Source: Mugil cephalus
Taxonomy: Eukaryota > Chordata > Actinopteri > Mugiliformes > Mugilidae
Length of the DNA stretch: 64,000 bases
Assembly: GCF_022458985.1 (NCBI RefSeq)
Contig: NC_061771.1
Location: forward strand, 31,325,764-31,389,763
Direction of reading: 5' to 3'
Part shown: one piece after another, positions 4,346 through 57,403 of the stretch
How positions within the stretch are numbered: the stretch's first letter is position 1
How the letters are laid out: each line of letters opens with the position of its first letter
The notes under the pieces: generated by a model
Database searches by the model: none
What the model was told of the DNA's origin: nothing
What the model saw: only the letters and a program-made list of their open reading frames with translations
Translations under genes and position numbers: made by a program

Positions 4346-4348
4346 TTA

Positions 4349-5018: not shown

Positions 5019-5039
5019 CTGTGGTAGCCATAGACATTA

Positions 5040-9335: not shown

Positions 9336-9339
9336 GACT

Positions 9340-12625: not shown

Positions 12626-12634
12626 TGTGTAGAC

Positions 12635-14278: not shown

Positions 14279-14440
14279 TCCATTTAATGATGAAGCTTTG
14301 AGATCAATGAATTAACTTATTGATTTTCACTCTTTATTCCTACTCTGTACATATATGCTTTAATACTACAATACTGGTACAGCTGAGAGCACAAAGATAT
14401 CAATGGATTAGAGAGATACGGTACAAACTGCTTATTCTGG

Positions 14441-14446
14441 AATAAA
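14441..14446 (+). terminator. Polyadenylation signal of TRIM gene 2
   Basis: AATAAA about 163 bases after the stop codon, at the same place as in TRIM gene 1. Confidence 0.6.
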
Positions 14447-14449
14447 ATG

Positions 14450-15050: not shown

Positions 15051-15058
15051 AAATGAAT

Positions 15059-15714
15059 TCAAATTAAATTCCACTCCACCAAACGAGCAGACCGGACACC
15101 GAGGGCAGAGGTCACTGCTGCAGTGTTGTTAAAATCAGGACCAGCCACATTCACAGTCGTCCTTAGTGTGGTGGGAGCAGTGGAGATCAGGACATGTGTG
15201 AGACCTGCTAAGGATCTGTCCTGAATGTCCAGCTGGGCCCCATGAATCAGAGGTTCCTCCAGCAGCCAGTGTAGGGACATAGTGGGCTCCAGTCTCTTCT
15301 ATAAAAACAGTCTCCAGGTTTTAAAAAGGCTCTGATAAAAGGTTCAAAAAGTTTAAACAGTCACTGTTCATTAAAACGGGGATAATCCAGTCCAAGTCCA
15401 TTCACTTTCTTTAAAATACTACTTGTAATGCGTCTCCAGACCACATCTATATGGCCAGTGAGGAGCTTTTGTATGAAGTGGAGTCTAAAGGCGGCCTCTC
15501 TACTAGGCAAGTGGACCAGTCTCTGTCCCCCTTCTTCCTTTGGCAGGAACAGCACACACTGAGGAACCCAATGAAGCTCATCCCAGAAAACGTTCACAAG
15601 GATGGTCTCTAACTGTTTCCCGAGGCCAGCAGGGGGCTCCACACAGGCCATCTTATGGCACAGACCACATGAGACCAGGTTATTAGTGACCAGTGCTCTT
15701 CCTCTGTGGGACAT
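15059..15714 (-). mobile_element. L1/Tx1-type LINE ORF2 C-terminal relic (unit 2)
   Basis: Minus-strand frames 15714-15361 (FWDELHWVPQCVLFLPKEEG) and 15280-15059 (SLHWLLEEPLIHGAQLDI) correspond to those at 5018-4349. No catalytic RT region is present. Confidence 0.7.
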
Positions 15715-15739
15715 ATGTGGTAGCAGCCATAGACATTAT

Positions 15740-16300
15740 AGAAGTAGACGCCCTATAGAGCGCTGAACGGCATTCCTACGTCACCGCCATCTTTGTGGAG
15801 TCAGGAATCGGAGATGACAAAATGCCTTGTACTGTGCTGTTTGGAAACGTTCTAACCGTTTGTGTATCCAAACCAAATCAATAGTAATTACCTACTGATG
15901 AAGGTATTATGGATAAAGCTAAAAATCTGAAGGGCTCCAGCATCTTCATCAATGAGGAATTCCCTGAAGGTGTTCGGCAAAAGAGAAAAGAACTTCTCCC
16001 AGAAATTAAGACAGCTCGAGAGAGAGGTGATATAGCATACTTGAGATATGATAAACTTATTGTTCATTCACCTAGTCACCACAACAAAGGAAGGCCAACA
16101 CTCAGAGTTTGGCTCACTAGCTTTCATCAGTTTGTAGCGCCCTTAGTCTGGATTGACAAACCACTAATTGCACCTACGATCTCTAGGTTCGTAAGAGTTG
16201 GACTCCTGAATCAATCAGGAGAGAGCATGAAAGTTGACAATTTATTGTTTCACAATAACCATCAGGTTTCTTTAGTGAATTAAAATGACAAAAATAGAGC
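15740..16300 (+). mobile_element. L1 ORF1-like relic and flank (unit 2)
   Basis: Frame 15909-16283 starts with the same L1 ORF1-like stretch as 5209-5427. A four-base deletion after LIVHSPSH lets it run on to 124 codons, so the longer frame is accidental. Confidence 0.5.
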
Positions 16301-17060
16301 TCTTTCATAGAAACAAAAAATAAAAATGTTTTATTGTCCAGGGTCCAGTGTGTAAGTGTTCAGTGTGTTCAGTTCAGTTTTTTACTACCCGGGTAGATTG
16401 TGTGTTTTGTTCCTTATCTGTGAGAAAGTAAGTGAATGTCCAGGTTAAAGCATATCCCACAAATGGCCACGCTGTGCACCTCTCCGTCCCTGTCCATGTC
16501 CTTCTGGCTCGCCACCGAACCTCCAAGGCTCGGAAATCTCGTTCCTAATCCACACCGGAAAAAGAAACAACCTACACACAGAGTGCAGTACTAATATTAC
16601 TCTCTATTCAATCACCAGTATCAAGCGTTAGCATTCAAGCTAGCGATCTTTTTACTGTTTACAATGATACACACAGCACCAAAATAGTTTCAAACATTGG
16701 GAAACATTCCCGTAACCCCGACTGGTTTCACAATAAGGACTTAATACAAGTATTTTCAACACAATATATGTTACAAGCCGACCACAAGGCTTTAGTCTCT
16801 AGCATTTAGCCACCATGCTTACCGGAGCATTTCTTCCCAGAGGGCTCGCTTGTTATAATGGCTCCTCTCATGAATTCTCAGAACCACGTTTATTCCGAAG
16901 CTCATCAGCCTGGTAGCACCGTGTCTCTCTGCTCAGTGTCTCGGGTCAGAAAGAAAGAGTGAACTCTGTGCACTTGGCAATGAGCAGGGGCCTGATGCGC
17001 CACCCTGTGGCGCGGCACAGCAACACACACTGCAAATGAATTGAATGGCTTTCTAACCAT
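16301..17060. repeat. Unidentified interspersed repeat (unit 2)
   Basis: Counterpart of 5600-6364, differing by only about four substitutions and one 3-base indel by eye over about 720 bases. Confidence 0.4.
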
Positions 17061-19290
17061 GTGGGTTACAAATGCATATGTATGTCATTTTTTGACTACT
17101 TTGCCACACATAGTTTTTGTTGTTATTTTACTTATTTTATGGATTACAATACATCTGTTTTTAATAGTCAGACATTTAACCCCTTTGATATTTCTGCAAC
17201 TGACACTTATAATTTAGATGTTGACCCAGACCAATTTTTTTTTCCATCATTTAAGCTTTTAAATTTCTGTAGTTTCTATAATGAATCTCAATTTAATAAT
17301 TTATGTGAGTCTATGCCTTCTGATGTATTTTCTACTTTTCACTTGAACATAATAGATAAGAAATATGAAAGCTTTAAGCTGCTGTTTCAATGATTGTTTT
17401 CCAATTGGCAAATTCTTTAAGAAGAGTCATGACTTGAACAAACCCTGGTTTACAAATGATTTACTTAAACTTCTAAGGAAAAATAAATATAAATAAATAA
17501 ATAAATAAATACACTCATTACATAAGATTTGCAAAAAAGGAATATTTCAGTGAAAAACTAAAATAAACATTCAAATGATATGAAAATCGCATGGAAAGTG
17601 ATAAATAGATTGTTGCAAAGAGGTAATACTGTATCAGAGCTGCCTTCTGTCTTCCTGGATAGTGAAAAGTCTTCCAATAGTCCACATGATATCGCTCAAA
17701 AATATTATGATTTATTTGTTAATATTGGTTATGAACTAGATAACTAGATAAAATTCCTCCTTGTCATGGTAATCCATTGGACGAAATTCCCCTAGTTTCT
17801 CTTCTTTTAAGCCTCCTGATATTCAAGAAATAAGTACCATAATTGATGAGCTAAAACTATGTTCCGCTGGTCACAATAATATTACTGCTTTCCTTGTTAA
17901 GCAGGTGAAGCAGGCAATATTACTACCACTTCTTCACATATATTCTTTGTTTTTGAAAACAGGCATTGTACCAGAGGATCTAAAAGTTGCTAGAGTTACT
18001 CCATTATTTAAAGCAGATGATCCATGTTGTTTTAGCAATTATAGACCCATATCTATCTTGCCATGCTTCTCAAAAATATTACAAAAGATTATATACAAAA
18101 GGGTTTTTCATCTAGATTCAATTATTTATAAACACCAGTATGGTTTTCAGAAAAATCACTCCACTTATATGTGTCTGATTGACAAAGTTGCCTCTGCTAT
18201 TGATAATAATGAATTCACTTGTAGTATTTTTCTTGACTTTTCCAAAGCGTTTGACACAGTTAATCATCATATTCTATTAGAAAAGTACAAATATGGGTTT
18301 CATGATACTACATAGAAATGGTTAAGAAATTATGTTTTGAACAGAAAACAGTTTGTTTGTTTTAAGGGTTACTGTTCTAGTAAAGCCACATTACTCTGTG
18401 GAGATCCACAAGGGTCCATTCTTGGACCATTATTATTTCTTATTTATATTAATGATTTGTTTAATGTTTCTAATATCCTTTCTCCAATAATGTTTGCAGA
18501 TGACACAACTTCGGTTCTCTCTAATTCAAACATCTACATTTTGATGAAGGATGCAAATGCTGGTTTAACTGCCTGCAACACATGGCTTAGATTAAATAAA
18601 TTATCACTGAATTTAAAAAAATCAAACTTTATTATTTTCAGTGGTAAAAAATCATACTCAAAGGATTTATCTAAAATTATACTAGAGTCTGTTGAGTTGC
18701 CTCAGGTGTCAAGCACAAGATTCTTGGGAATTATTGTTGATGAACATTTGAATTGGAGAGATCAGATTGATTGTGTACACAGAAAGATAAATAAATCCAT
18801 TGGTATTATAAGGAGGATTAGACATTTTGTCACTACAAATGTCTCCTTACTCTTTATTATAGTTTAATTTATCCCCATCTTTCATATTGTAATACAGTTT
18901 GGGCAAGTACATTTCCTACTACTCTCCACAAAACTTTGAAAAACTCCAGAAACGTTTTATTAGGATTGCTACACGATCAAGGTTACACATTTCATCTGCC
19001 TCTCTATTTCAAAAACTTTAAATTCTAACTATTTATGACATTAACATCTTTCAAATATGTGTTTTTCTTTACAAGATCATTTCAAATGTAGTCGTACTTT
19101 TTGATGTTTTGTGTTTTATAATAACATGAAATTGAAATATCAGTTTATTACTATAAGTTGGAGGGTTCAAATAAGCCCACTGTGTTTTTTTGCCTCTCCC
19201 TGCACTTATTCTTATTATCATTATTATCATGTCTGTATTATTTATTTAATTTTAACTATGCAAAATAATAAACTATAAACTATAAAACTA
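17061..19290 (+). mobile_element. Non-LTR retrotransposon relic with RT domain (unit 2)
   Basis: Copy of the element at 6365-8745: frames 17061-17393, 17905-18315 and 18337-18867, with the same SKAFDTVNHH, GDPQGSILGP and FADD motifs and the same TAG stop. It differs by an ATAA-repeat replacement at 17484-17511, a small extra segment near 17898-17925 that restores the frame start, and loss of about 100 bp in the 3' part. Confidence 0.85.
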
Positions 19291-19499
19291 TAACTTTCAC
19301 ATGTCTTAACAAGTACTCCTGATTGTATTTCAGCCATATTCTGCATCATTTTTAACCTTTATAACAGTGTTTTCAGAGTGTAATTTGTCAACGTTATGGA
19401 AAATACCATGGATTCCCGTGCAATGGTTTAATGGTATTTACTTTAGTCTGCTCATGGTATTATATCTAATAATCAAAATATAACGTATAGTTAATAACA

Positions 19500-19915
19500 G
19501 CTAGAGTTGCCACCCGTCCCATAAAATACAGAATCGTCCTTTATTTTGCAATTAAATGTTGCGTCCCGTATTGAACGGATACAGGACGCGATTTGTGCCG
19601 TATTTTCATAAATGTCCAATGCATGTGTCTGTCTCACACATATACACTAAATCCTAAATCTAACAATAATGACCAAAATAAGATAGGAAATACTACGTTG
19701 TGGTAGTACTTTGTTGTGCCTGTGGCGCTGTCAGGGTTGCCTAGAGACAGACGCTGCTCAAAAAAAAAAAAAAAAAAAATACGCCTCTTAAAAATGTCCG
19801 CTTCACCTGGGACTCCACCACGTCCTCAAAAGCGAGTAACAAGAAGGACACTTGGAAAAAGAAGTGAGGGAAATCTGTGGACTGTTTACATCTGGTCTAC
19901 TCCACAGACAAGAGA
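19500..19915. mobile_element. DNA-transposon-like relic with internal hairpin (unit 2)
   Basis: Counterpart of 8960-9335, with the same GCGTCCCGTAT/ATACAGGACGC inverted repeat and an A-run of about 19 at 19761-19779. Confidence 0.4.
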
Positions 19916-19919
19916 AACA

Positions 19920-20371
19920 CAACAGTTTCGCCTGTGATGTGCACCCCCAGGAATTCAGTGCTGCTGATCACCTCCACAGCTGAGGTGTTGATGAGCAGTG
20001 GAGTGTGGCTGGGCTGGTTCTTCCTGAAGTCAACGATGATCTCCTTCGTCTTGTCCACGTTCAGGATCAGGCTGTTGTCTCTGCACCAGCCCACCATCTG
20101 CTCCATCTCCTCTCTATAGTCCAGGTCGTTGTCGTCTCTGATGGGGCCCACCACCATTGAGTCATCTGCAAACCTCACAATGTGATTGATGGCGAACCTG
20201 GGGAGCCTGTGCTGAGGGTGATCGGAGGTGTGATGTCTGACCCGGACCGACTGAGGTCTGTCGGTGAGGAAGTCTAGCAGCCAGTTGTGAAAGGGGATAC
20301 TGAAGCCCAGGTGTCCCAGTTTTCCTACCAGATGCTGTGGGATGAACGTGTTGAACGCTGAACCAAAGTCC
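19920..20371 (-). mobile_element. Non-LTR retrotransposon (Rex1/CR1-like) relic, truncated (unit 2)
   Basis: The minus-strand frame 20397-19897 carries [25 protein letters not shown] and [20 protein letters not shown]. It lacks the same PQG-containing stretch as the unit 1 copy and stops abruptly at about 20371, where TRIM 5' flank follows. Confidence 0.8.
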
Positions 20372-20385
20372 AGTGCACCCCCAGG

Positions 20386-21535: not shown

Positions 21536-24500
21536 CTCATAAAGAGGTGAAGAAATTTCAACTCCTCTATAGCCTCGATGACAAGGTTGCCAAACATCTA
21601 CGCCTGTCAACATACAACTCATCAGATGAGATCTTCTGAATCTTGGACGACTGGTTCAGGGACCAAGCCACCATCGCTCTTGAGATTGTCAAAGAATTGC
21701 AAGAAACTTCAACAGCCAACCAGGGAAAGTCATAGAGCCTATCTAAGCTGTGAAAAAAGGCCCTTTATGATTTAAATGAAGTGGGAAGTGCAAACGCCAT
21801 AAATAATCCACTAGTAACTAAATCCATCAAGAACAAGCTGCCAGAGACTATGAAAAAAGACTCATGTATGCTGCAGATGAGGAAAACACTGGTAACAGAA
21901 GAGAGTCCATATAAGAATCCATATAATAACAACTAGATCAGTTGAGAGATTTCATTGAACCCTCCAAGGAGAAGACCAAGTTCCAAAAGTACGCCACAAC
22001 AAAGACAACCAAGGTTTAGGACCAACCTAAAGCCATTGGCGAAGAGGGACGCAGCGCAACAACTCAGTGCCTGCATGAGATGTCTTGATGTTCACAACGG
22101 CGACTACTGCAGAAAAACTACTCACCTGATATCTAGAGTGAACCAACACCACTGTCTTCTCTGTCTACTTGCCAGACCCCAGTCCCAAAGAACAACCAAA
22201 TCTAGTCCAGGGAGAGCTGAGGGCAAACGATACACTGAAGCCCAAGAAGAGTTCCTCTCCAAACTTCCACATGAACCAGATGTTCCCCTCAAAGACTTCG
22301 CAAGACTTGGCAAGACCATCGGAGGCACACACTCTGACCTCTTTGAAGAAGTGATTTTTAAGGCCCACTTCATCCCCAGATTCATGAGAACTGCAGCAGT
22401 CAAGTACAGTGAGCTCACCTGTAAAGATCCAGTCTCCCGCCAGTTTCCCAACCATTCAGGCACCCAGTCCAATACCACCACCAGCAGCAGAGACTTTCTA
22501 AAGTGGCGGGAGTGGGAAAGCATTGGCACTGCCTGTGAACTGAGGTGTGGAGGATGACGCTGCGTGAATTGCCAACCTGGGGGAAAAGAAATGACACTGG
22601 CCAAAGAAAAAGAGATGGAGATGGTGAGAAATGGCTAGACATATGTAAACGGAGACCATCACAGCTCTGAACCACACTGGCACGCCAAGTATCCATGGAA
22701 AGAAGATCCGGCATCTCTACCCAACAATAAGAGAGCGGTTGAGGTCACATTCCTCAGAACGAAGAAGCAGCTGGCAAAAGAACTAGAGTGGAGGTTGGCC
22801 TACACTTCACAAGTCCATGAAATGGTTACTGCCAAGGCTGCAGTGAAGCTGTCTAAAGAAGTTCTGCAGAGCTGGACCAGGAGGGTGTGGGACATAAATC
22901 ATCTGATTGCACCAAATCCGCACTCCGTCTCCACCCCAGTGAGGCTAGTGTGGAACAGCAGCCACAAGTACAGAGGCCTAAGCTTGAACAACATGCCAAT
23001 CAAAGGTCCTGACGTGCTCAACCCGATCAGAGCTGTCCTACTGAGGTTCCAAGCTGGTGTCTTTGCTTCCCTTGATGACATCCTCAAAATGTATAATTCC
23101 GTCTTGCTGGAGGAGGTGCACCTGCACATATTCCTATGGCGTGACACTGAGGATGCTGAAATAGAAGATTTCGTCATAACAAGAGTTAACATTGGAGACA
23201 AACCTGCTGGTTGTATCGACCACGTTGCCATGTGAGAGACCATCAACTTGCCTCAATTCAGGAACTTCAAAGAACAGAGACATGTGCTAGATGAAGACAC
23301 GTATGTCGAAGATATCCTGACCTCTCATAACAACCTTGACCATCTGAAACTCCTCACGTCTAACACTGAGTAGATCCTTAAAGCTGGAGGGTTCTTCATG
23401 AAGCCCTTGGTCTACTCCAATCAAAGTGGGAGGAAAGAGCCAAGAGGTGGAAACATGGAGTGAAAGACCATGATCCTGCCAAACCAGCTCACAGTTGAAG
23501 ATAACAAAGCCCTCGGCCTGGGTTACACCATTGAAGATGACAAGCTACACATCATGGTTGCAGTAAACTTTTCCAAGAATAGCAAAAAAATGCACCTCAG
23601 TCAGAACTTACAGAGAGAAGAAGTAAGAAGTCAAACCCCTGATCCACTCACCAGAAGATAACTGTTAAGCCAAATCTCTGATCTCTATAATCCACTCAGT
23701 CTTGTGGCTCCTGCAAAGCAGAAGGGAGCCATCCTGATTCAAAGAGTTTTTCAAGAAGCAAAAGTAATGTACTACAGAAAAGATACCTGGGATGCCACCC
23801 TGTCCAAAGGATTCAGAGAAGATGCTATAAAGCTCCTCAAAGAGTACGCTGATCTGAACCAACTCCGATTCACCAGACCTCTGACGCCGCTAGATCCATG
23901 TGCAAGACCTAATGGCGTCACCGTTTCTGATGGCAGTGAGCATCCATACGGTGCTTACTGTACCTATGCTGAAAGTGCAGTCATGGTGTTGTTGTGAGCT
24001 AGTTGAGTCAAAGGCCAAGCTGACCCCCCTCAACTGCAAAGGTGACCATGTGAAAGCAAAGATGTGTGGAGCATTCTTTGCAGCCTGGTTTAAGAACCAC
24101 TTCCAGAAACACTGCCGAATTGCAGTTGAGAGGTGGTACCGTCTCATCGACAGTCAGACCGTCTTTGGTGCAATACAGTGCGAGAGTTACGGCTACCAGA
24201 CGTTTTTCGCAAACTGGGTTGGCGAGATCCAGAGCGGCACCAACGTCCACCAAGATTGGTGGTGGATTCCAGGGCCTGAAAACATTGCAGATATCATCAC
24301 CAGAGGGGCCAGTCCTAATGGCCTAAATGAGGAGTCAGAGTGGTAGTTAGATCCAAAGTTTCTTCAACTTTCTGAAAGTCAGTGGCCAATGAAATCTGCC
24401 AAAGATGTCGCTGTACAATCAAGAGACAATATCATAAAAATACAGACGAAAACATATGCCGCAGTACTCACCCAAAGTCAACTGAGACAGCAAGATCCAA

Positions 24501-26290: not shown

Positions 26291-26790
26291 NNNNNNNNNN
26301 NNNNNNNNNNNNNNNNNNNNNNNNNNNNNNNNNNNNNNNNNNNNNNNNNNNNNNNNNNNNNNNNNNNNNNNNNNNNNNNNNNNNNNNNNNNNNNNNNNNN
26401 NNNNNNNNNNNNNNNNNNNNNNNNNNNNNNNNNNNNNNNNNNNNNNNNNNNNNNNNNNNNNNNNNNNNNNNNNNNNNNNNNNNNNNNNNNNNNNNNNNNN
26501 NNNNNNNNNNNNNNNNNNNNNNNNNNNNNNNNNNNNNNNNNNNNNNNNNNNNNNNNNNNNNNNNNNNNNNNNNNNNNNNNNNNNNNNNNNNNNNNNNNNN
26601 NNNNNNNNNNNNNNNNNNNNNNNNNNNNNNNNNNNNNNNNNNNNNNNNNNNNNNNNNNNNNNNNNNNNNNNNNNNNNNNNNNNNNNNNNNNNNNNNNNNN
26701 NNNNNNNNNNNNNNNNNNNNNNNNNNNNNNNNNNNNNNNNNNNNNNNNNNNNNNNNNNNNNNNNNNNNNNNNNNNNNNNNNNNNNNNNNN
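26291..26790. other. Assembly gap 2 (500 N)
   Basis: A run of exactly 500 N. The left contig ends in a TRIM 5' flank; the right contig starts in sequence that is GLRA3 3' UTR in the other copy. Confidence 0.99.
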
Positions 26791-29379
26791 AAGCCCCGGC
26801 ATGGACCAAAGGAAGGAGAACGACGTCAGGACGAGGAGGCTCCTCCTTCTCTTCAAAGTCACGAGAACAGACGTTCAAACTAATCGACGATGGGGAGTTC
26901 AGGTTCTCCGTCTGTGATCTGCTGTAAAGATCTGAGACTATTTCTGCTCTGATCACTGATCACAAAGTCTTCAAAATATATTTATTTCTATTCATAGTGT
27001 GCTTCCAATAAGAAGAAGTTATAATAAAAAACAAACAAACATCACGTACAGCAAAAAACTTTATAAAAGCAGAACACATATGGCCACTCTTCCCTCTGGA
27101 GTAACATGAGTTTTTAATAAGATATATATTTAAAAAAAAAGGTACAAAGCACCAACAAAAGAAATATTATTTCCTGTAATATTAGAAACAAAAAACCTCC
27201 AGAACTTCACTGTACAATGCACTATTACAGAGGACACAGGCAAAACTAAAGCAAATCAAAACAGGCCTTCAGCTTGGATCTGAACGTCGTCACCAAACAT
27301 GTGACCTTGACTCAGCCTCGCCTCCGAGACCTCCCGCTTCTTCACTCACTTTAAGTTTCTACCTCCTTCAAAATCTTAAACAAAACCAGCTGCAACCACC
27401 AACAGATGCATTTATTTTAGTCTTAGCTGACACTTACTCAAATGGCAACGTTCAGAGGAGGTTTCTGAGTCATTCAGGGCGGATCGTGTTTAACTTCACA
27501 CCTCCGTAGCGAAGTGTTGAGGCGTGAAGTGTGGTTCGATCTGATATGACGAGCCTAAAATAAATTCAGAGACATGAACATGTGGTTAGCCAAAACTGTC
27601 CTCAGCCTCTGAACAACATTTGCAGTTCATGTTTCACGTCTTTCATTTTGAGTTATTGCCACAGTTAAATACTTCAGCGGGTCGAAAGTTAGCGTATTGC
27701 CACTGCCGTAGATAAAAGTTTTGGGGGGTCCCTAGGGAGGTCCTCTAACGTCATGAAAATTTAGCACAGTGCCACTGCTTTAGTTTAAAGTTTTTCAGAG
27801 CTGCCTCTTGAAGCTACTCGTCTGTGGTCAGCTGAGAAAGAGGTTAGAAACTCCCCTCAGTCTCTGAACAACACGTGTATTTCGATTTTCACCTCTTCTC
27901 ATTTTGAAGTATTGTCACATTTAAATACTTTAACGGGTCAAAACTTTGCACGTTGCCACTTGTTGTAGTTTAAGGTTTGGGCCTCAGTCAGGACTCCTAC
28001 TGTCACTAGCTGTGTTTCCATTCCCCCCAAAAATGCCTAAAACCTAAATATCACAACAAAAAACTGGCAAACCCCTCAAATATCTAAAGCTAAAACATTT
28101 TTACTCTCTAGTGAGGTGGTTTTTCAGACGTATTGATATGAGTGCAATGGAAACACTTTTTTTTTCATTTCCCGTCACCGGAAACGATGCCAGGGGTCAT
28201 GTGACCAGTTCATCTGAAGTCGATCTTCCTCGAAGTGAAGTCAATTTACGAGAGTTACAGCTCGTCCGCAAAGCACTTTTCAATGGAAACACGTACATTC
28301 GTATTTCGCAAAAAAACTGAAATGGAAACGCAGCTAATGAAAAATTAGCTCATTGCCACAGTTTAAAGTAGTTTTTCAGCCCTTGGGGGCCCCCTACTGG
28401 CCTGGCGCCCCTCACAGCCTGACAGCTGCTCCTCTGGTCATAGTCTTTTCTCTAAAAACAAATGCCGTCCCTTTAAGAACATCCCTCCCTTTTCCAACGA
28501 GAGAGCAGGAACGTGAAAACACTGTTTACAGACGCCGAGCTGAAACAGTTTTTGTCTTAGTGCTCCCAGCTCACCCTCAGGAGTTCAGACTGGACATAAA
28601 AAAGAGAAAAAGAACAGATGGAAATTCTTAAAACTCAGAGAAATGAGCTGTTAAACAAAGACGGCTTTCATTGTGTGTTTCATTATGTGAAGGAAAGGAA
28701 ATCCTTCCCCCATGTGTCGGTGATAAAGTTTTCACTGATACTTTGGTCTTTTCTCTGAATATTTCTCTCTGTGTTCTGTCTGTTTTGTTGTGCTGGTGAT
28801 GAAATGTCAAACCTCAGCGTTTATTATTAACGTGTTTCCCTTGGCTCCAGATTCGACCTTCAGATCTGTATCTGTAGCATGACGTCGTGTGTTTTCTCTC
28901 TTCAGCCACGAGTGCTTTAACTCCTCGAAAGATTCCTGCAGCGTTGCAGGTTTCCAGGCTCGTATATGCCAATAGAAAAAAAAAGCGTCTTTAAACATCC
29001 ACAAACACCAAAGCAGTGGGATCATGCAGGACCCCTGCCAAGTGTTTCCTTTCGCACAGTTGGCCCCGACCCAGGATCTGCATGTAGCACTGAGTAGCAG
29101 CAGCCAGCTGGACTCTAACCTCACATATCCTCAGTTACTCTCTCTGGCCAGATCATTAGGTACACTAGTGAAAACAGCCCTGCTCTAAACTCCTCTAAAC
29201 TCTTTGTGACAGTTTTTCAGTTTTTAAAGACAACACACCAGTAGACGGATGATTTATTTTGGACATCAGAGCATATCTGAGAATATCTTTTGAGCTACTT
29301 TTAACATTTAGGAGGTTTTATGTCTGTAAATAGTTGTGGGGCCATTGCTGTATTTTAAAGTTTGTCCTGATCCAGAGGG

Positions 29380-29410
<31 letters not shown>

Positions 29411-29414
29411 ACTG

Positions 29415-30020
29415 TTAGATTTTGAGCAGACGTTTCATCTGAGCAGCTTCTTCGGTTCTAAGCGACTGGTGGGAAGTTGAGGTTTGAATAGGGAACTCTG
29501 TGGGTAAAACCATCAGACACAGTTCAGTTCATTTCAAACCCGGTGAAACACTTAGACAAACTGGTCCACCCCAAACACAAAAGACCCAGGTGGAAACAGA
29601 GTAATGTAGCTTACGCTGTTTAGTGCAGTGAGGAAGGAGTTTTAATCTGCCACTGATGTACAACACAGTACTTCTGTTTCCAAGAAGTTTCAAACCGATT
29701 CACTTGTTGAGCCTCTCACAATGGCTTCTTTAGAGCACCATTCAAAGGTAAAGTGGTTTGCCACACATAACGACAGGTTAGTATCCAGCCGTTACTGGAT
29801 TAGTGGCACCAGTTTCTGTGTTTTACAGAAACAAGTCAAACAAGTTTCTGATGGGTTTCAACCACAGAGTTCAGTATTTAAACCTCCACTTCCCACAAGT
29901 CTCTCAGAACTGAAACTACTCGGATGAAACGTCTTCAAGAAACGCTGCAGGTCCAGTTTCCTTTTTAAAAAACACCTTTTGGATAAAAACCATGACCTGG
30001 ATGACTGAGAACCTTCACAG
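29415..30020. mobile_element. Penelope-like element tail flanked by inverted copies (copy A)
   Basis: The segment 29425-29515 (GACGTTTCATCTGAGCAGC ... GAACTCTGTGGGTAAAACC) is the reverse complement, with mismatches, of 29848-29940 (TTTCAACCACAGAGTTCAGT ... GATGAAACGTCTTC). Between them lies sequence matching the tail of the element at 834-1400 (GTGGCACCAGTTTCTG). It is preceded by an A-run of about 21. Inverted terminal copies are known for Penelope-like elements; the family call is tentative. Confidence 0.5.
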
Positions 30021-30898
30021 ACGTTTCTCCTGATGAATATTGTTTAGGAGTCAGAACTCTAGTGAACGATTTCTTTGGAACCTGTTTATCAGCTTTTAGT
30101 TTTGCCCAAATGATGAATCCAACAGGTTTTATTTTGAAAGTCTCACCAGAAATATAGCTATGCATTGCCTTCCCGCAGACCACAAGGTGGTCCACTTGGT
30201 AGTAGTATGTTTCCTATTTATGGCTACTTCTTCGTCTCCACAATTTTGAAATTGATTATTTTGATTCGAAGGTTATGGCGTGTGTGTCCCGCAGTAACCT
30301 AAAAGCGATTTATAATCTGACATATACATCGTCCCTGCTGTTGGCCTCTGGTAGGTAATGCCTCCTAAAACAACAGCCGAGCAGTAAATCTCATCTTGGA
30401 GTTCCGCAAGGCTCTAGTTAAGTTCCTCTTAAATTTATATTATATCTTATAGATTTTGGCTGTTTTTTGTCAGTTCCTTCCTTAAACCAAATATGTATAG
30501 TTTTTACACAGTTTACAACAAACCAACAACCTACATACACTCACGGGCCAAAACATTAGGTACACTAGTGAAAGCAGTCTAGTAGTAAATCTAGTCTTCA
30601 TGAACTTCCTGGGATTCAGAAGTAGTTTATAATTGGGATGTTGGTTCAGTTGTGTTTTAAAGTCTCTGAGTTGAATTTTTAAAGCAGCCCGTTCTCTAAT
30701 ACATATAATAAATAACTGATGATGCTGTGAAGTGTTTGAAGGCTGAAACACTGAAAATATACAAGATTTCAGTTCCACAAGGCTCTATTTAAGTTCCTCT
30801 TGTTTTTACTTTTAGAGAGATCTCACTATATTTTCCTTCCTTCAACCAAAGCCTTGTGTATTACTTACACGTTTTAAGACAAATTGACAACCTATATA

Positions 30899-31135
30899 CA
30901 CTCACTGGTCAGATCATTAGGTACGGTAATGAATGCATTTCAATATAAAAGTCCCGCTCCAAATAGTCTTCATTAAGGTTCTGGTATTCAGGAGCAGCTA
31001 ATAGCTGAGAGAGATGTTGATTCAGCCGTGTTTTCATTGTGGAGGCTGTTGTTTGTTGAGTTATTGAACTGTAGCTTGTCCCAACATGTGTATCAGTCAG
31101 TCCAGACTTCACTAGTGTACCTAATTAACTGGCAT
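30899..31135. mobile_element. Short Tc1/mariner-like MITE (copy A)
   Basis: The left end CACTGGTCAGATCATTAGGTAC and right end GTACCTAATTAACTGGCAT form imperfect inverted repeats about 237 bp apart. The CATTAGGTACA end resembles the termini of fish Tc1-type elements. No reading frame remains. The same element is at about 61552-61788. Confidence 0.4.
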
Positions 31136-33354
31136 GGCAGGATGTGAGAAGCCAAATTTACAGTAAGTTAGTTGAGAAAACATCATTAAGTGCATATTTT
31201 TCTCTTGCCAAACTTCCTCAAAGAAGTTTCACTTCTCTAAATCCTGCTTTTTATAATCTAGTTCTCTAAAGTGAAAGAAATCTTCATTGATGTCTTTCAG
31301 AAACTGTTTCCTGGAAGGATTTAGTCACGCCAGTGATTCCTATAAGGTTTTCAGAGCGTTGTGGTGTCCTCATCCAAGCAGCCAGATCTGTCCAGAAGTT
31401 TAATTCATGTACAAGAAATTCTGTTCCTTTTTTAGTATTATTTTTTTTTTGAAGCACTACCACTGCACTTAAACCTCTCATGAGCTACAAAGTTCCTCTT
31501 TACAGCAGTCACTGTTTTGTGTTGCCTGGCCAGCAAATTCTGTTTGTGACTTTTTCTACTGTGAGCGAACACACTGCTGTGTATTTGGAATTATGACAGT
31601 TTGTCCATAAAACAAGTGTTTTGGGAATCTATCGCCACTCGCATATTGAATTTATTTTAATGAAGTTTATCGGGCAGATTTGAAAAGCATGTACTTATAA
31701 CGGTAATGTCACAGAGGCCTGTAGGGTCAGATGTCACATCAACATCCAAATCATTAGTCTCCAGGTTAAAGGTCCTTCCTTCCTTCCTTCCTAAATCTGG
31801 ATCATCATCTCCAAGTCAACATCCATGTGTTCTTGGTTCTGGTCCAGTGGGTAGGTAGAGATCCATCAGACAGCAGCTGATACAATATTCTACTGACCAC
31901 ATGGTGGCGCTGCTTCTGATTTACACACAGACTGAGATCAGATCTTTAGTTCTGGCTGGGGACGCATGAAGAGACACATTTTAATTAACACACAGGGACT
32001 TAAGGAGCCTGAACTTAAAGTAAGACCAGATGTTAATGTGAGGACGATGCGTTGACATCCTGATGACGGGAAACTCTACTCTGTTTCTGTTTTAACTCAA
32101 CGACGATTCATTCTGTAGGAAAAGATTTGACGTGTATCGCTTGGAAAACTTTCCGTCTTCAGTAAGATGCTGAACCCTGATCATGTTTGTTTTTATGTGC
32201 AGGTTTTCTCAGACCAAAGCTGCAGCACTTCTTTCACCAGGTTTTCATTTCAGATTTTCAACAAACTGCATGTAAAAAAATAAACAAAAAAATTGCGGTT
32301 AAACTCTGCTGCTGTGGAGAAGACGTCGTTAAACTGTGAAAATTACTAGTCAGAGTTCACTGAGCCGTACATTGACAATTATTTTGTTTTGTAGCTACAC
32401 ACCTTAACCACATCAGTTGAGTCATTGTACACAGTGCTCTGTTTGCAGTCTTTTTGTAAAACAAGATGTGCATATTTTACATTATCTAATTAAAATTTCT
32501 TGATTTAAAATAAACATTGACACCACGTCTTAAAGTTGGTCGTTTTTCTTTTAGTTTCTCAGTTCCACCGTCTCCCAGGGAGTTCTAGGTTGTCGGTTGA
32601 CACATGTTCTTGTGAAACATCACCATCTTTGTCCAAGTTCTGTTCCAGTTCAAATACCCAGATGCTTTCTCGACCTGCCGGTTTCCTTGAGGACACATCT
32701 GGAGATAATTTGGATGGACTTGGCGCAGCCAGGTATCCCAGAATGCATTTCAAGTGCAAATTCCAGAGTAACCTAAACAAGAAAACTGTGTTGCCTGAAT
32801 ATGATACAAAAAGGTAATTAAGTAAACATTACTCATCTATGTTGTTAGGTATTCTTAACGTCTTGTGTTGCCAGTTTGTCTTTTAGTCTCTTGGTTACGA
32901 TATCTTGTGGTGCTGCCATGACTGTGATAAAAAAAAAAGTCACATTAAGCTCCATCCAAACGATCTGATTGGCCCACTAGATTCTTTCTGGAGCAGAATC
33001 AATTCCCAACACAGTGACTTACATGCTTAAAAAAAACAAAAACCTGACGGAGTTTGAGCAGTTTTGTAAATAAGAATGGAGTAAAATTGTACAGATGTTC
33101 AAACCGTGATTGAGATCATGATTGCATCTACGGAGAATTGACTTGAAATAACGAGCGTTACTTGTAATACTTGTGGCGTAAATGTAAATAAGCTAAATAA
33201 GAGAAAACATGTCAGATTGTCTCCATATGTTTTCATCAAACTCCCACAAAACAAATACAGTTGTTATTGATTTTTATTCAATTTTAAGCCTACCATCCGC
33301 CTAAAATAAGTTCTTTTGTAGTCACCTAGACGGCTGGAATGGTGATACAACAAA

Positions 33355-34680
33355 CACAATACAGACATCTTGTGCTCATCTTGTAATTAGCACTGATATG
33401 TAGCCTGTCTTGGTGACAGGTTTCCCAGGGCAGGTATATGTGTGAACGACAGCCATATGAAGGAAATATTAATATTTTTTATGAATTCTATAATGTGCAC
33501 AAATGTAGAATGCAAAGATGTACAGGCTAAACAAAATGTCCAAAGGTTGAATTGTGTTTATGTTTCCTCCTGGTTCTATTTTTACTAAAACCTTCGGTTC
33601 CACAAGGCTCGGTTTGAGGTCCCCATATATTTTACGTTTAGAGAGATCTTACTGTATTTCCTTCCTTAAGCCAAAGCTCTGTGTATTATTCACACGCTTA
33701 AAGACAAATTGTCAGCCAGATCATTGGGTACACTCATGAATGCTTTTCAGTATAAAAGTCACACTCTAAATAGTCATCATTAAGGTTGAAACCTTTGCAC
33801 AATATGTGAGATTTGTGGTATTTCTATAAGCTCTTGGTCCACTCCTGGTCAAGGCGTTGATGAATGACTTCAGAATGATGTCATTATCCGATCTAGAGAG
33901 TTGGCCTGGCTCGACCTTCAGTATCTTGGAGAGATTTCCGTTTCTTGAAGTTCCACAGGGCTCTATTTAAGGACCCCATATTTTTAATGACTTAAACCAA
34001 AGCCCTGTGTATTATTTACACATTTTAAGACAAACTGACAGCCAGATCATTAGCTACACTAATGAACGCATTCATCTGGCCCATTCTTAGAGACCAGGGT
34101 CTTGATTGTAGACCTGATATTTTCGGAGCTAGTCCTGATTTGTTTGGTCTTATTTATTTATTTATTTAGACGAGCTTCACCTCCCAGCATCCTAGAGCTG
34201 AAGAGGTCAAAAGGAGGCAGCTGGAAACATTAATGACATTAATGCATCTCCTCCCGAACCAGACTGTGATGGAGAAATCTAGACCTCACCTGGATCAGGA
34301 AGTTCCTCATCTCGGTCATGGACGCTTCTCTGCAGACTGAGCGAGCGGAGGAAGGATGTCCGATAAGAAGGTCATGGGGAGGATGGGCTGCGAAGGAAGG
34401 GAGAGAGAGAGGGGGGACGAAAGGAAGCGTAGGGGATGTTCCTGGAGCTGGGCTATCAACACAGAGCTTTATTTTCTAAGAATCATCACACTAATGTATT
34501 TTTTAACTCCTTTGGTATCGCCACGAGTCGACGTGCAGAGACCTGAGTCCCGGTTGTAATGTGCCTCTGCTTTGATGTTGTGCAACAGCTGCAGGACTCG
34601 GATCAAAACCTGTAATTATTATTCTACAGTTTACTTAGCCTCCCTCTCTCTCCCTTTGACACACATGTTTGTATAGACTG
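33355..34680. other. Upstream region of HPGD; degraded repeats only
   Basis: Contains two degraded repeat units that start GGTTCCACAAGGCTC (33595) and AGTTCCACAGGGCTC (33949), each followed by a CAGATCATT(A/G)G-type end. No gene could be supported. Confidence 0.5.
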
Positions 34681-34686
34681 ATAAGC

Positions 34687-34819
34687 AGAGAGAGAGAGAG
34701 GGAGAGAGAGAGAGAGAGAGAACAGAGAGGGAGGGGAGAGGGGAGGGTAAACAGTGAAAACTCTAGAAAACCTCTGCGAGAACACATATGTGCATGAGGA
34801 CTCGGTGCAGAGAAGTAGT

Positions 34820-34850
<31 letters not shown>

Positions 34851-34873
34851 AAAGAAGAAGAGGCGCCGAGATC
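34687..34873 (+). promoter_or_regulatory. HPGD: HPGD 5' region: GA and GAA microsatellites
   Basis: A (GA)n/(GGGGA)n purine tract at 34687-34747 and a (GAA)n tract at 34820-34862 lie directly before the HPGD start at 34874. No TATA box is evident. GA tracts of this type are GAGA-factor-like, open-chromatin candidates, but that is inference. An in-frame upstream ATG lies at 34754. Confidence 0.5.
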
Positions 34874-37800
34874 ATGTCTCTGGATGGGAAGGTGGCGCTG
34901 GTGACCGGAGGCGCTCAGGGCATCGGCAGAGCCGTGGTCAAGCTACTACTGGAGAGCTCGGCTAAGGTCAGTGGGTCATCTCCGACACCAAACTCTCACA
35001 GCTCCTGCATCAGCCTCCCCGACTTAGTGTCCTGTTGTGTCTCAAGAAGTGTTGCTGAGAACTTGCTTTATTCTGTGGGACGAGGAGCTCAGGAAGCCGC
35101 CAAAGCTGTCAACGAACTGAGCGCTGCAGAAACGCAGAGCAGAGCAGAGCGTCATTATTGTCACTGCAACGAGTAGAGCGGAACTACAAGGACTAGTATA
35201 AGAATAGATAGGAACAGCAGCAGCGCTCTGTGAAAAACAGTCTCATAAAACTAAACGAAAGTCAAACAGTGTTTAGTGCAATAATAATCCGCCGTGAAAA
35301 TGTCTGCCAGAGGGTCACCGTTCAACTCCAGCTGCAGCTCAAGCCCTTCTCACCGGCTCGAGTCTCGTCCTGCAGGTGGCCGTGGTGGACCTGAACGAGG
35401 CCGGCGGCGAGGAGTGCAAGGTGCAGCTGGACGCCGAGTTCGGAGAGGGTCGCTGCGCATTCATCCAGTGTGACGTGTCCAACGGAGACGCTCTGAGAGG
35501 TGAGAGACGCAGCGCGGAGCTTCGACACTGATAAACAAACAAACAAACCGGTAAGTGGTTTGTTTGTTTGTTTGTGTGGCTGTTTCTGCTCCTGGACACA
35601 GGCTCTGTTTCCCGCGGGTGTCGGTGCTGGTTTATTTCTGGGCGTGTGAGAGTGTGAAGAAGCATTAGTAAAGAGTAAACTAACATTTTTAATCTGTCCC
35701 AGAGAGACAAGGAACAAGGTGTCTGTGGCTAAACCCCTGCAGGCAACGCTGAGGAATGTTGTTGCTGTTTCGTCTGACTAGAGGTAGTGAGTGGTTAACC
35801 CTTCACGAGCCAAGGGACCATATTTGATAACTTCAGCATATTTTTAAATTGCGTCTTTGTTCCACTCAGTGAGGTTTATTGTCATGTGATTTTCATTGAG
35901 CCAGTCAGAGAAGATCAAGGAAACATTCTCAGGTCTAATCAGGCTCTAATGTGGTCTACGAGGTCCACCTCTGCATGGAAACACATTTATTAGGTACTAA
36001 GAGGAAGAAGTGTCCTAATGTTGTCTAACGTGATAATATTGACAAGTGTGTCCATCAGCTCTGATGTTCTAATACTCTAAATATGATGTTTGCATTTGTT
36101 TAAAGACTAGGAACCAAATATGGGAAATTCTATCTAGGACGTAGCCAAAGTAAACGTTTTGGAGCTCATTCATGGTCTCGGTCTCTTTTTAAAGCCAAGA
36201 CTCTGAAGTTTCATTAAAGTCAGAATCACTCGTAAGTGGTTTAGTTGCTATCTGATGGCGGCTGCGTTGGTTCAATCCTATTAAGGCTTTTAGGAATGAA
36301 ATCAGAAGAAAACTAACTTCCCAACGACACATTGCATACAGCATTTACTCAAACACAACTCATGTCCAGAGCGCTGATTGGTGAAAGGGAAGCTGCTGCT
36401 GTCCCATAGATCACCCAGGGGAATCAACTTTTACCATGAAAATTTAAGTAATTGAAAACTGTTTTCTTACGTCCTACGCGTCACTCCAGGGTTGACATTT
36501 AGAGTTTTTTTTCAATGAGTGTTGACATTGAGAGTTTATTTCAATGAGTACCCTATAAAGGGTTAATATTGTTTACAGGTTGCTCTGCACTTTTCTTGTG
36601 TAAACGTTGTTGCACGTTTGTTGGTTTGTAATTGCAAGGCTCTTGGATAGGAATGCAGCAGGTGGTGAGAGACATACAGGTTTCAACCACTGATTTGTAT
36701 CAGAGAACAACCTGCCCAAGGCCTCATTGTGTAACTCCACTATTACGGTAGGCAAGGCGAGACGAGTTTATTTATACAGACACAATGCAACTCGAAGAGC
36801 TTTTAATTAAAAACAAGATAAGATGAGACTTAAACGACGATAAGACACAGATAAAACAGGAGCTTGTTTAGGCTAATGTTGCAGCTAAACAGCATTTTGT
36901 TTAGGCTAATATAGCAGCTAACAATATTTTGTTCATGCTTATAGAGCAGCTAATAATATTTTGTTTAGGCTAATGAAGAAATTAACATGATTTTGTTAAG
37001 GCTAATGTAGCATCTAACATTTTGTTTAAGCTAATGAAGCAACTAACATTATTTCTTTTAGGCTAATCGAGAAGCCAACAATATTTTGTTTAAGCTAACA
37101 CAGTAGCTAACAATGTTTTGTTTAAGCACTATAGCAGCTAATATGATTTTGTTATGGTTAACATAACGGCTAATAATATGTTGTTTAGGCTACTAGAGCA
37201 GCCAACATCATTTTGTTTAGTGTAATGAAGCAACTAACATTATTTTGTTTAGGCTAATGTAGCAGCTAACATTGTTTTGTTTATGCTAATGTAGCACCTA
37301 ACATTGTTTTGTTTAGGCTAACATAGCAGCTAACAATATGTTGTTTAAGCTAATAAAGCAGGTAAAATTATTTTGTTTAGGCTAATGTAGCAGCTAAAAT
37401 TATGACATAAAGCAGCACAAGGAAGTTTAAACAAAACATTAGAGGTCAAATTAAAAAGATCATAACACAGAGAATAGATAAAACAGGAGAGTAAAAGTTG
37501 CAGTGAAGTGTAAGATATTGATAAAATAGACTGAACTAAAAACAGCAGCAGAGAGGAAAGTTTTCAGCCTTGAAGAGCTGAGAGTTGGAGTTTGTTCCAG
37601 GTATGTGGGGTATAAAACTGTACTGTACACCCCCCCCCCTTCCCAAACACCACCTCCATTCTCACTGTTTATATCCAGCCAACATGTCTGAAGTCAGTTT
37701 GGCCTCATATACGAGGAAACTAAACACGCTGGCTTCAGGAATGGGGAAAAAAACCAACACAAATTCTTTCATAAATATTTTAGAGAGAGATTTTCCTCTC

Positions 37801-40800
37801 TGCATGTCGAGACTAAAACATGTTTGTTTAACCCGAGGACAAAGAGTTTTGTAATGTTGAGTCACTTTTAGCTCAGTTTTTGTTCTGTGTATCTTGAGTT
37901 TTAACATCAGTGCTCAATTGTTCATAATGACCAAGTGAAAATGTGTATTTTGACAAGTGAAAAACTGAAAAACTATCATTTACAATTAAAAATAATTTTC
38001 AGTTCATGCAGTTTTTTTTCAAGGACCAACTTATAAGGCCTTTAAATGTCTTACTGTTGGGAATTGATTCTGCCTTCTAATCAGAAAGTGTGGATGGGGC
38101 TTAATGTGATGATGTAACAGTAGTCATCCACATCATTTCAGATGAAAGAATTATTTGACCTTATTATATGAAGCTAACATTATTACAACATAATAGCTAA
38201 TATTACCTTGTGTAGGCTAATATAACTTATAGCATAACATTAATTTGTTGAGCTTAAATAAAGCAGTTAACGTATTTGGTTCAGGTTCATTTAGCATTAT
38301 TTTGTTTGTATTTTGTTTTGGCTACTATAACAGTTATAACAGCTAACATTATTTTGTTTAGGCTACTAATCTTTTTTGGGCTGCCATTAGCTTGTATAGG
38401 CTAGCGTAGCAGCTAATGTTACTTGTTTAGGCTAACATAGCTATCTTTATTGAGCTACCATTAGCGTGTATGGGCTTGAGCAGCTAACAATATTTTGTTT
38501 AGCCCAACATAGCAGCTAATGTTATTTATTCAGGCATATATAACATAGCTATCGTTCTTGGGTCAATATTGGTTGTACAGGCTAACATAGCAGCAAATGT
38601 TACTTGTTTCGGTTAACATAGATGTCTTTATTGGGCTACTGTTAGAGTGTTTAGGCTAATACAGCAGCTATCAATATTTTGTTTAGGCTCATAAGCAGCT
38701 AACCTTTTTGGCTAATGAAGTGGCAGCTTGCAGCTAAATTGGTCGCTCAGGGGAGAAGTGATATGTGTTGATCGATCTCCTTTAAACCACAACAACACCC
38801 TGTAGCGTCAAAACTTTTTCTTCATGAAAATGTTTACACTAAACAACTGTCCTTTTAATTTGGGCACATTGCTGCCACCTGCTGTTTAGTTCTGAATCAC
38901 AGTGTTCAAACAATCAATCAGTCATATAGTACTTTTCATACAAAATGTACAATAATTCCACCTGTGCCCGAAGCAAACACAATGCAGCTGACTACAGTCT
39001 GGAGTCAGAATACTTTACTAAATGAGACAAATGTGTTTTTTTGTTTTCTGAGAGGATTTGTTCAGTCAATGATTGATGAGGAGGATGTTTGGTACCGTCG
39101 GTGTGGACCCTCTGACATGTGGTTTGTGAATGAATACAAATAAATGAAGTCTTGTCGTCTTTGTGCAACAGAAACCTTCCAGAGGACCGTGGACCAGTTC
39201 GGTCGCCTGGACATCGTCATCAACAACGCCGGCATCAATAATGAAAAGGACTGGGAGAAGACCATACAAGTCAACCTGGTGAGACGACACAACAACGACC
39301 TACTGCTATGCAAGAAAAAAGAAAGAAAGTGTTTTAAAATAAGGAATATACATGTTATTACTAATACTGTGTGGTCTTCTGACGGTGTCAGTGGGGGGCC
39401 TTTGAGGGGAGGGGTCTTTTTATTCTTTCTTTATTAGGATCCCCATTAGTGGTCGCTAGTCTTTCTCTGGTCCATACAACAAATTCAACAAAAAAAACAG
39501 ACAAAGGTTAAAATTGTACTATATAAATAAAACAGAAAACACATAACAGATAAAATATAAGAATCAACAAGTAAGTGAAGTCACTCTGAAGTCAAACAAC
39601 AAAATGATAAATTTATACTTACCTACAGTCGGGCTGCACTATTCTGTGCAATCTGAAATTTTAGTTAATTAAGTCAGTGATTTTAACAGCTCAAGGTGAG
39701 TCTTTTATGAAGATAGAAAATAAAAGTGGACCCAAACTACTTCCCTGCGGAACTCCGCAAGGTATGTTCACGTTGGCAAAAAATGTGCCGTTAAAAAAGA
39801 AATGTTCAGCCAAAGAAGCATCCTACAGATACAGTTTGATCAGTTTGAGATGTGGTGAATTTGAAGACCGGGGTACTTGGTCTGGTCTAGGTGGGTGCTA
39901 CATGTCTAAGTAACATCGACATGAATGAATCCCAAAAAAAAGAAAAAAAAAAGAAAAATTAAGAGACATAAAACATCTGTAACAGCTATGTAATATATCA
40001 CATATATATCACACAACAGTAAATATATGTGGAGGTCAGAGAACCCCCAGCTTTCTCTAAACAATATTAAGCAATATTTGTGACTTTACCATCAATACTG
40101 ACACTAAATCAACGAATTACATTTTGTTTTTAATACGTTCACAGATGAAAAGGAGGAGAATTGATTGTTCCACTTGTCTTTGTTCATCTGAAAAATGTAA
40201 GACCTATAAAAAAAAAAACAAGTTTATTAAGAATCACACAGGCCTTGATATCAGATATTTTATCTTCGTTATATCTTTGCAGAAATGCGTTTCTTCGACT
40301 CTTTTCTAAAGTCTATGAAGGTAATGGAGTGGTCACGACCTGAGTTTATATCAGAATGATCTGAGACAGAAGAAGAAGTCAGACATTCCTGGGGAGCAGC
40401 CGTAGAGAGATGACAGTCATTGATGCCAAAACATGTCGCTCCACACGGGAGTTTAAACAGAGATAAAGTCACGATTCTCTTCTTCTGTCCTGATGCTCCA
40501 GATAAAGAGTTTCATGCAAAATCAGAACAAACTCGTCCTTTTATCAGAAGAGTGAAGCAGAAGAAAGAGAAATAAAGTTTCATATTTGATCATCTTATAC
40601 TTCTCATATTTACCACATCAGAGAAGAAACTCAAAGACACAGACATTAACTCTTTGGTCCGTCTTTGCCCCAAAAAGGACAGAAACTGATTTTATTAGGT
40701 CATGAAACCAGCACAGAAGAAACGTTTAAAAAAAGGTTCCTATAAGCACTTCAGTTTTGAAATGATTAGTGGTCAATAGCCAGTCCTCTAGTTTATACAC

Positions 40801-43800
40801 AATCATAAAACTAAGCTGAAACAAGCTGGACCCGTTGAGTTTCTGGAAGACATTTCCTCCAAATCTTCAAACTAAACCTGTGCTGCATTTACATTCTTAC
40901 TGGACAGAATCAGAGCAGGAAAAACGCCCGAGCTTTCTGAAGGAAAAGATCTCCTGCTGTTTTATTTGCTGACGTGAGTCACCTGAGGCGGCCTTACCCG
41001 AGTCCTAAGTCCAGACAGTGGACAAAGAGAGCCCAGCCTTGTGCTTTCATTTATTTATTCAAGTAAATTAATGATCTGTTCATATCAGTGAGTTATTAAA
41101 CTAGGGGAAGGCTTGTGTCCAGTGTGTGAGTCATAACTAAATGTTTGTGGTAACAGCTGATCATCTGGAGGAATCTGATCCCATTAATCAGAACAGAACC
41201 AGTTGAGTTGTGAGATGTTGGTGGTTTCCTCTCATCAACTGATGCTACAACATTTCTGTTGGATTCAGGTCAGGACTTTGACTTGTTCCTAAACATTCAT
41301 CTGGTTCTTCTTTAACTGTTCTTCTTTAGAGCCACAGTTCTAAGAGACTGGAGGGAAGTTGAGGTTTAAGTAGGAAACTGTGGGTAAAAAACAATATTGT
41401 ATATAGCTATATATAGCTCTGCTTTTCCCTTTGTTCTGTGTCGTGTCATTTTTGTCCCCATGACTTTGTCTCATGTTACAGTCATCTTGCCACCCTGGCG
41501 AGTTGGCGTTTCCATGCTCAGCTTAATGGAGATAAATTTGACTTTCTGAATGTGGTCCTTCTCCCTGTTTACATGCAACGGAGAAAATGGAATAACTGAC
41601 GGGAACATGTCCTCCTCCACACTAGGGGGCGATATGTGTCTTGTCAGCCGGTTAATACGGCCCACTTTCTGGTTGGCCTATTACATCACATAATAAACAA
41701 GAGTCGTTCATGCAGCATAATAGTTTCTTTAATCTTTTTTTATGTAATATACGTGCTGCTTATGGTGCAGATAGATGGCGCTATCCCTCGGGTGGTTCTT
41801 CTACTGGCTCTGTTTAACCTTCTTCTTCTACTGTGACTGACTCACTTGGATGTTTTTGCTCTGGGGTCATACGCCAGCTCAGCGGTTGTGGAGAATGTGT
41901 TTTTCCAGTTAAAGTCGGATTAAGGCGTATACATGCCGGAGACACTCGATTTCTAATCTCATTATCTGTGTGTCTTAACGTAACGTGTTTACATGAACTT
42001 AAGTTGTCCAGTTAAAGTCGGATTAAGGCAATAATTTGTTTATTTTCACGTGCATGTAAACGAGAGTGATGACGTGGTCCAGATGCGTTCTACATAAATG
42101 AACAATAAACCAGGACCTGAACCACACTCTGATTGGACCTTGAAATCCTAGAGGTTCACCTCACTGACATGTAATATTGGCTCATTTTTCCAAACTGAAC
42201 AGACACCAGAGTATAGTATTTCTGTTTAATGTTATTTCTGTGTTCTACTAAACTCTTTTCCTCTGCAGCTTCTCTCACAACCAAAATTCACAAAATGATT
42301 TAATAACTGATCATCAGATGATTTAGTTTGAATGAAACGTGGCTTCAGGATGAGGAAGTTTAAATGAATCAGCTCCGTCCACAGCTCTAGCAGCAGAGGG
42401 CTTCCACTTTAATTTATTCATTAATCCTGAATGAAAACGTCGTTTTTTTTCCGTCTCCACCCAGCCGACCTCAAGCAGATGTTTCCTCCCATATGAACTG
42501 CTCAAGGTTTCTCCTCTTAAAGGGGAGGTTTCTGTCGTCTTTGTGCTGCTTCGAAGGTTTCAGCCCCCCAACGTCAAATGTACTGAGCAGACTGACAGGA
42601 TCTTAACTGTGGTTGTTGTCTTTGAAGACATTCCTCCCCATCTAAGATCTTATCCTGTCCTCGCCTCTCGGACTGAATCGCCGCTCTGATCTCAGATACT
42701 CGAAGCACCACTATCCGGAGTAGACACGAGTTTCCTCCGTCAACTTCTTCTAATCAACAACAGATGATCGTTTACAGCTGGTCATTTAAATGTCGCAAAA
42801 ATCACAAGGACTTTAGAAAGAAACGATTGAAGTTTGTTTAATCTGAGAACAATGGGAAGCTTTATGGAGGTGGAAGAGGAGTTTCATGATCAGTTTAATG
42901 ATGATATATATATAAAAACAGCAAATATAAGGATACACATTCTGATTGAATGGAATGAGTAGGTATATCATATATATATATATATATGTATAACTTCCTG
43001 GTTCCGAGCTGATCTGTTGTGGTTCCTGTGTCCTGATCCTCAGACGTCGGTGATTAAAGGGACCTACTTGGCTCTGGAGCACATGAGTAAAGAATACAGC
43101 AAAGAAGGAGGCACCATCATCAACGTCTCCTCGATGGCAGGTAACAAACATGTGGAGCTTTTACCTGGAAACTCACGAGCAAAATGATTCATTCATCTGG
43201 TCGGACCACAGGTTATGTGGTTATTAAGGAAGGAAGGAAGGAAGGAAGGACATTTAGATGGGGAAGGAGGGAAGGATGGATGAAGGAAAGTTGCAAGGAA
43301 GGAAAGAAGGATGTTTAGATGAGGAAGGATGGAAAGAAGGAAGGTTGCAAGGAAGGAAGGAAGGCAGGACGTTTATATGAGAAAGGAAGGAAGGATGGAG
43401 AAAGGTTGAAAGGTAGGAAGGAAGGTTACAAGGAAGGAATGAGGGAAGGATGGATGGATGGAGGAAGGTCCCTATGAGACTTGTCACTTCCTGTCTGAGA
43501 GGACTGACTCGGTGGTGGAGCTCTAGTGGACGTTAGAGGAACTGCAGGTTTTGGGTTCATGCTGTTGTGTTTGTGTCTCATGTTCCAGCCTTCATGCATT
43601 CCCCCCACCAGCCCGTCTACACCGCTACCAAACACGGAGTCATTGGCTTCACTAGAGCGATGGCGGTAAGACGCTAACACACAACAGGAAGCGCTCTGGA
43701 GGCGGAGGCGGAGGCGTAGGTGTCTCATTGTCGTGTTGTTGCAGGACGCGTCCTCTCACTGCGACTACGGCGTCCGCATCAACGCCTTGTGTCCGGCCTT

Positions 43801-54443: not shown

Positions 54444-57403
<2,960 letters not shown>

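Follow-up and report, generated by a model that had tools for sequence, protein, structure and literature searches.

Does the region around the gene HPGD in the Mugil cephalus genome carry a duplicated piece of DNA, or has one locus been assembled twice? The question is raised by a window of 64,000 nucleotides (C2:31325764-31389763; assembly GCF_022458985.1, 634.8 Mb in 24 contigs), in which a long block of DNA leading into HPGD is found two times. The sequence examined included 100 kb more on each side of this window and, later, an additional 50 kb downstream. Three gaps, each of exactly 500 N, interrupt the window, and three further 500-N gaps lie downstream, at 71339-71838, 90376-90875 and 105927-106426 (window coordinates are used unless C2 is named). 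The pieces between gaps were numbered contigs 1 to 7, with lengths of more than 100 kb for contig 1, 25,457, 27,153, 16,895, 18,537 and 15,051 bases for contigs 2 to 6, and more than 107 kb for contig 7. This stretch is poorly assembled. It has an array of TRIM genes on one side (contig 1) and, on the other (contig 7), one of immunoglobulin-like (Ig-like) genes that was judged by eye from open frames.

When the window was compared with itself by megablast, positions 26791-33354 matched 57444-64000 on the same strand with 99.65% identity, 14 mismatches and 4 gap openings, in line with the 15-20 differences that an earlier note on this DNA had estimated by eye. That note was right in describing a block present twice, but not in the size of 6.56 kb, as the match continues past the edge of the window. 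When 100 kb is added per side, it extends to 26791-40689 versus 57444-71338, in such a way that copy A (forward strand, at the left end of contig 3, with the HPGD 5' region and exons 1-3) measures 13,899 bases and copy B (forward strand, at the right end of contig 4 and running beyond the window) 13,895 bases, with 99.45% identity by BLAST. Alignment of both copies with MAFFT revealed 36 substitutions (19 transitions and 17 transversions) and 15 insertions or deletions (indels). At least 7 of the 15 indels are located in homopolymers or short tandem repeats (GA, GAA, AAAC, TTAT); seven are single-base changes and several are whole repeat units, and two stretches of more than 3 kb each are free of substitutions. 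A 401-base probe from the block gave two full-length matches in the genome, both of 100%, among 44 listed (best 40 of 1615 candidates scored). With a probe of 501 bases that covers HPGD exon 1, for which 39 of 39 candidates were scored, 80 matches were listed, two of full length (100% and 99%) and 78 short ones. Chance is excluded as the source of the repeat.

The position of the block edges was then compared with that of the gaps. Copy A starts directly after gap 2 (26291-26790, between the TRIM/transposon contig 2 and contig 3), where contig 3 begins, and the start of copy B lies 40 bases past the stop codon that closes the GLRA3 frame at 57403, both as placed in the earlier note. On the right, copy B and contig 4 finish together on the base before the gap at 71339-71838. 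Counted from the start of each contig, the block spans 1-13899 in contig 3 and 3001-16895 in contig 4, where 16895 is the final base. The orientation is the same, and the two contigs form an exact dovetail; the start at exactly 3001 of contig 4 is taken as a coincidence. Because the outer limits of the repeat are one left and one right contig end in the same orientation, its geometry is that of two overlapping contigs. Gap 3 (53944-54443), between contigs 3 and 4, separates the two copies.

Exons 1-3 of HPGD are found in both copies, and their coding DNA (333 bases) is identical in the three of them. All are on the forward strand: the coding part of exon 1 at 34874-34972 in copy A and 65525-65623 in copy B, exon 2 at 35376-35498 and 66027-66149, and exon 3 at 39171-39281 and 69824-69934. 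The best PDB matches of exon 3 are 15-hydroxyprostaglandin dehydrogenase (15-PGDH; 8.8e-15). A tblastn search with the human HPGD sequence covered residues 1 to 257 on contig 3, where the later exons give four stretches within 43047-45953 (forward strand), and only the first three exons on contig 4. Since the later exons were found on contig 3 only, the HPGD of copy B is truncated by the end of contig 4; the second HPGD that the earlier note suggested looking for past position 64000 is there, reduced to exons 1-3.

To the left of the overlap, contig 4 carries the region of the GLRA3 exon for the third transmembrane segment (TM3) and the last exon of this receptor gene (54444-57443, forward strand). 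The best PDB match of the last exon is glycine receptor alpha-3 (E 8e-23), and the Pfam transmembrane model scored below the cut-off on this short piece (22.7 versus 28.1 bits). The 5' exons of GLRA3 were not located: a search with the Pfam ligand-binding domain lists none on C2 near 31 Mb among the best 150 of 197 candidates, and an exon-4 query derived from a paralogue gave 30 matches, four of them at 89-100% on C5, C15, C5 and C12, and a single one on C2, of 65% at 11.05 Mb, which we take to resemble GLRB. In human, GLRA3 and HPGD are neighbours on 4q34 and are transcribed in the same direction. A literature search for GLRA3, HPGD and WDR17 together gave a single entry, which does not concern synteny. 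GLRA3, GPM6A, HAND2 and HPGD are placed in a 4q deletion/duplication region in the available excerpt of a published report, which does not state the adjacency of GLRA3 and HPGD (PMC10061865).

We propose, with a probability of around 80%, that the block is one locus assembled twice on overlapping contigs that were left unmerged and put in the wrong order, an assembly error and not a gene duplication. The single locus would comprise the end of GLRA3, an intergenic space and HPGD exons 1-3. The assembler would have put it on two contigs, most likely owing to allele differences, and contigs 3 and 4, overlapping by 13.9 kb end to end, would have remained unmerged. A Hi-C scaffolder could then have misplaced these small contigs, adding a fixed gap of 500 N. 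Such a wrong order would make the overlap look like a duplication, with copies that are 30.7 kb apart in the present scaffold, and would leave contig 4 inside another gene, WDR17. As for their origin, the two copies are probably alleles; differences like theirs (36 substitutions and 15 indels in 13.9 kb) would also be expected of a young true duplication.

The WDR17 gene bears on the order of the contigs. Its C-terminal exons, about residues 916-1195 in human numbering, are on contig 3 (49508-52625, reverse strand) and its first exon, residues 1-44, is on contig 5 (72575-72706, reverse strand), and no match to the WDR17 query was detected by tblastn on contig 4, situated between them. WDR17 should therefore continue from contig 5 into contig 3, and contig 4 now interrupts it: the gene is split by an unrelated contig carrying GLRA3 and HPGD, a sign of misordered contigs. 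Pfam recognized no family in four WDR17 pieces, so that the identification of this gene relies on the match to the human sequence. Residues 45-915 were not found within the 264 kb around the window, and the middle part of the protein gave 18 matches in the genome (best 72 of 84 candidates), two of them being the contig 3 exons (75% and 68%) and the other 16, at 30-43%, of WD40 type. In this search no sequence belonging between contigs 3 and 5 was found elsewhere in the genome. The middle of WDR17 appears to be absent from the assembly rather than misplaced, and, because it was not found, sequence is taken to be missing between contig 3, which ends at 53943, and contig 5, which starts at 71839.

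A second overlap of contig ends is found next door. The part of contig 5 between 81738 and its right end matches, in reverse orientation, the part of contig 6 between 97512 and its right end, which makes an inverted end-to-end overlap (81738-90375 and 97512-105926, that is, C2:31407501-31416138 and 31423275-31431689). BLAST detected it in two pieces, one of 4.76 kb with 97.9% identity and one of 3.58 kb with 95.4%. In a global alignment, 35 indels and 308 substitutions were counted over 8,378 aligned bases (3.7% substitutions), and two of nine 1-kb blocks account for 211 of these substitutions. A probe inside this overlap found two near-identical copies (100% and 97%). The overlap contains a phosphomannomutase (PMM) gene, with PMM2 as best match in PDB, whose later exons are on contig 6 only; in a PMM exon, the contig 5 copy shows amino-acid changes relative to that of contig 6. 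Flipping contig 6 behind contig 5 would probably restore the PMM2-like gene. The higher divergence of this second overlap may be due to divergent alleles, to read errors near a contig end or to a real inverted paralogue.

The order supported by sequence comparison would thus be contig 4, contig 3 (overlapping), missing sequence, contig 5 and contig 6 flipped. The earlier note had already placed contig 4 with GLRA3 before contig 3 with HPGD and WDR17, with an overlap of at least 6.5 kb, and this holds with an overlap of 13.9 kb that ends exactly on the contig ends. Its doubt about the adjacency of the TRIM array and HPGD was also fair, as the left neighbour of contig 3 is, by sequence, contig 4, and no sequence was found that ties the end of contig 2 to contig 3. 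For the terminal 1000 bases on the right of contig 2, on the right of contig 3 and on the left of contig 4, the only full-length match was the sequence itself (within the best 40 of 187, of 5306 and of 457 candidates scored, respectively; 1 of 40 listed in the case of contig 4). For the starts of contigs 2, 5, 6 and 7 and for the end of contig 1, the comparison covered the 264 kb of surrounding sequence.

Some points weigh against an assembly error. The placing of the WDR17 exons depends on comparison with one human protein sequence, the second overlap, at 3.7% substitutions, is no clean match for ordinary allelic difference, and a real tandem duplication with an unassembled junction would yield, by reasoning, an identical dovetail geometry. 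An artefact of another kind, in which reads containing errors were under-collapsed and yielded one haplotype twice, as two contigs (homotype false duplication), is improbable. It would be in keeping with the single-base nature of 7 of the 15 indels, with the crowding of 211 of the 308 substitutions of the neighbouring overlap in two of nine 1-kb blocks, and with the amino-acid changes in the PMM exon of contig 5 with respect to contig 6; however, substitutions exceed indels in the 13.9 kb block (36 versus 15), and several of the indels are whole repeat units, as found between alleles.

We give still less credit to a real and recent tandem duplication, with the order GLRA3, block, block and rest of HPGD, the junction lost in a gap and the scaffold order still wrong. 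Apart from the dovetail, about 0.3% substitution also suits a very young duplication. Nevertheless, this is less likely than an assembly artefact, because no contig bears the junction and both probes found two copies only, because the block edges have a single base (A) in common, with no repeat or clear microhomology that marks a breakpoint, and because the overlap of contig ends recurs next door, in contigs 5 and 6, where no second duplication is required. If the block were a young tandem duplication, or if the sequenced animal carried a duplication allele, there would be a truncated extra start of 15-PGDH under a duplicated promoter. A real duplication as scaffolded, in which another fragment with GLRA3 and HPGD would have been inserted between contigs 3 and 5, agrees with the present order, presumably set by Hi-C contacts, but is hardly credible, as GLRA3 exons and half of HPGD would sit inside WDR17, both repeat edges would have to hit gaps by accident, and contig 3 would be without a GLRA3 of its own, none being found left of copy A within the 100 kb searched.

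Other repeats and features were observed in the region and elsewhere in the genome. The TRIM cluster (1-26290 and the 100 kb upstream) holds 13 RING motifs CGHNFC, ten on contig 1, one of these on the minus strand, and three on contig 2. On the latter, a unit of around 8 kb with a TRIM gene and reverse-transcriptase frames is repeated at 1452-9828 and 12140-20373 with 91-97% identity, and this looks like a real tandem duplication, with its copies within one contig. A fragment at 23894-24346 scored just below the cut-off of a Pao retrotransposon peptidase model (21.8 versus 22.3 bits). With respect to the linkage on C2, SPC22 (SPCS3) is located at C2:11134282-11135238, near the GLRB-like exon (C2:11050392-11050619) and 20 Mb from the HPGD contigs. 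GLRB and SPCS3 are both on human 4q, so the pair is consistent with C2 as the chromosome, though not with a precise position of contigs 3-6 on it. SAP30-type exons are on C6 and C15 and not on C2, at odds with the human 4q linkage. On C6, two SAP30-type zinc-finger exons share a strand at a distance of about 14.49 kb, with 2 mismatches in 2.5 kb (99.7% identity). No N run was found in the parts read there, 29194001-29206000 and 29208001-29211000, with 29206001-29208000 outside them; this pair is possibly another false duplication of the same assembly, or a real one.

An annotation of the scaffold as it stands would contain an additional, truncated HPGD, a WDR17 in two parts and a cluster of TRIM genes next to HPGD, and none of the three is fit for use. 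About 106 kb of scaffold (contigs 2-6) should be flagged for doubtful order and orientation.

The arrangement was compared with known kinds of duplication and artefact. It is like tandem segmental duplications in being a direct, little-diverged repeat of DNA that carries genes, and differs from them in that both outer edges are contig ends and no junction was found. It also resembles the misorder and inversion of small contigs in scaffolding. According to a paper describing these (PMC6952475), 500 N is the default gap in both 3D-DNA and SALSA2, and the default input cut-off is 15 kb in 3D-DNA and 1 kb in SALSA2. The uniform 500-N gaps and the sizes of contigs 2-6 (15.1-27.2 kb, the smallest of 15,051 bases, just above the 15-kb cut-off) are compatible with 3D-DNA defaults, with one pair wrongly ordered and one contig apparently flipped; SALSA2 has the same gap default with its lower cut-off. 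Finally, as in the false heterotype (haplotypic) duplications of PMC9516828, near-identical copies are present on one scaffold, truncating genes and interrupting another, and both the gap between copies (gap 3) and the end-to-end overlap of contigs are found. In contrast to these, the contigs are here also misordered, in such a way that each copy lies on the far side of the other contig.

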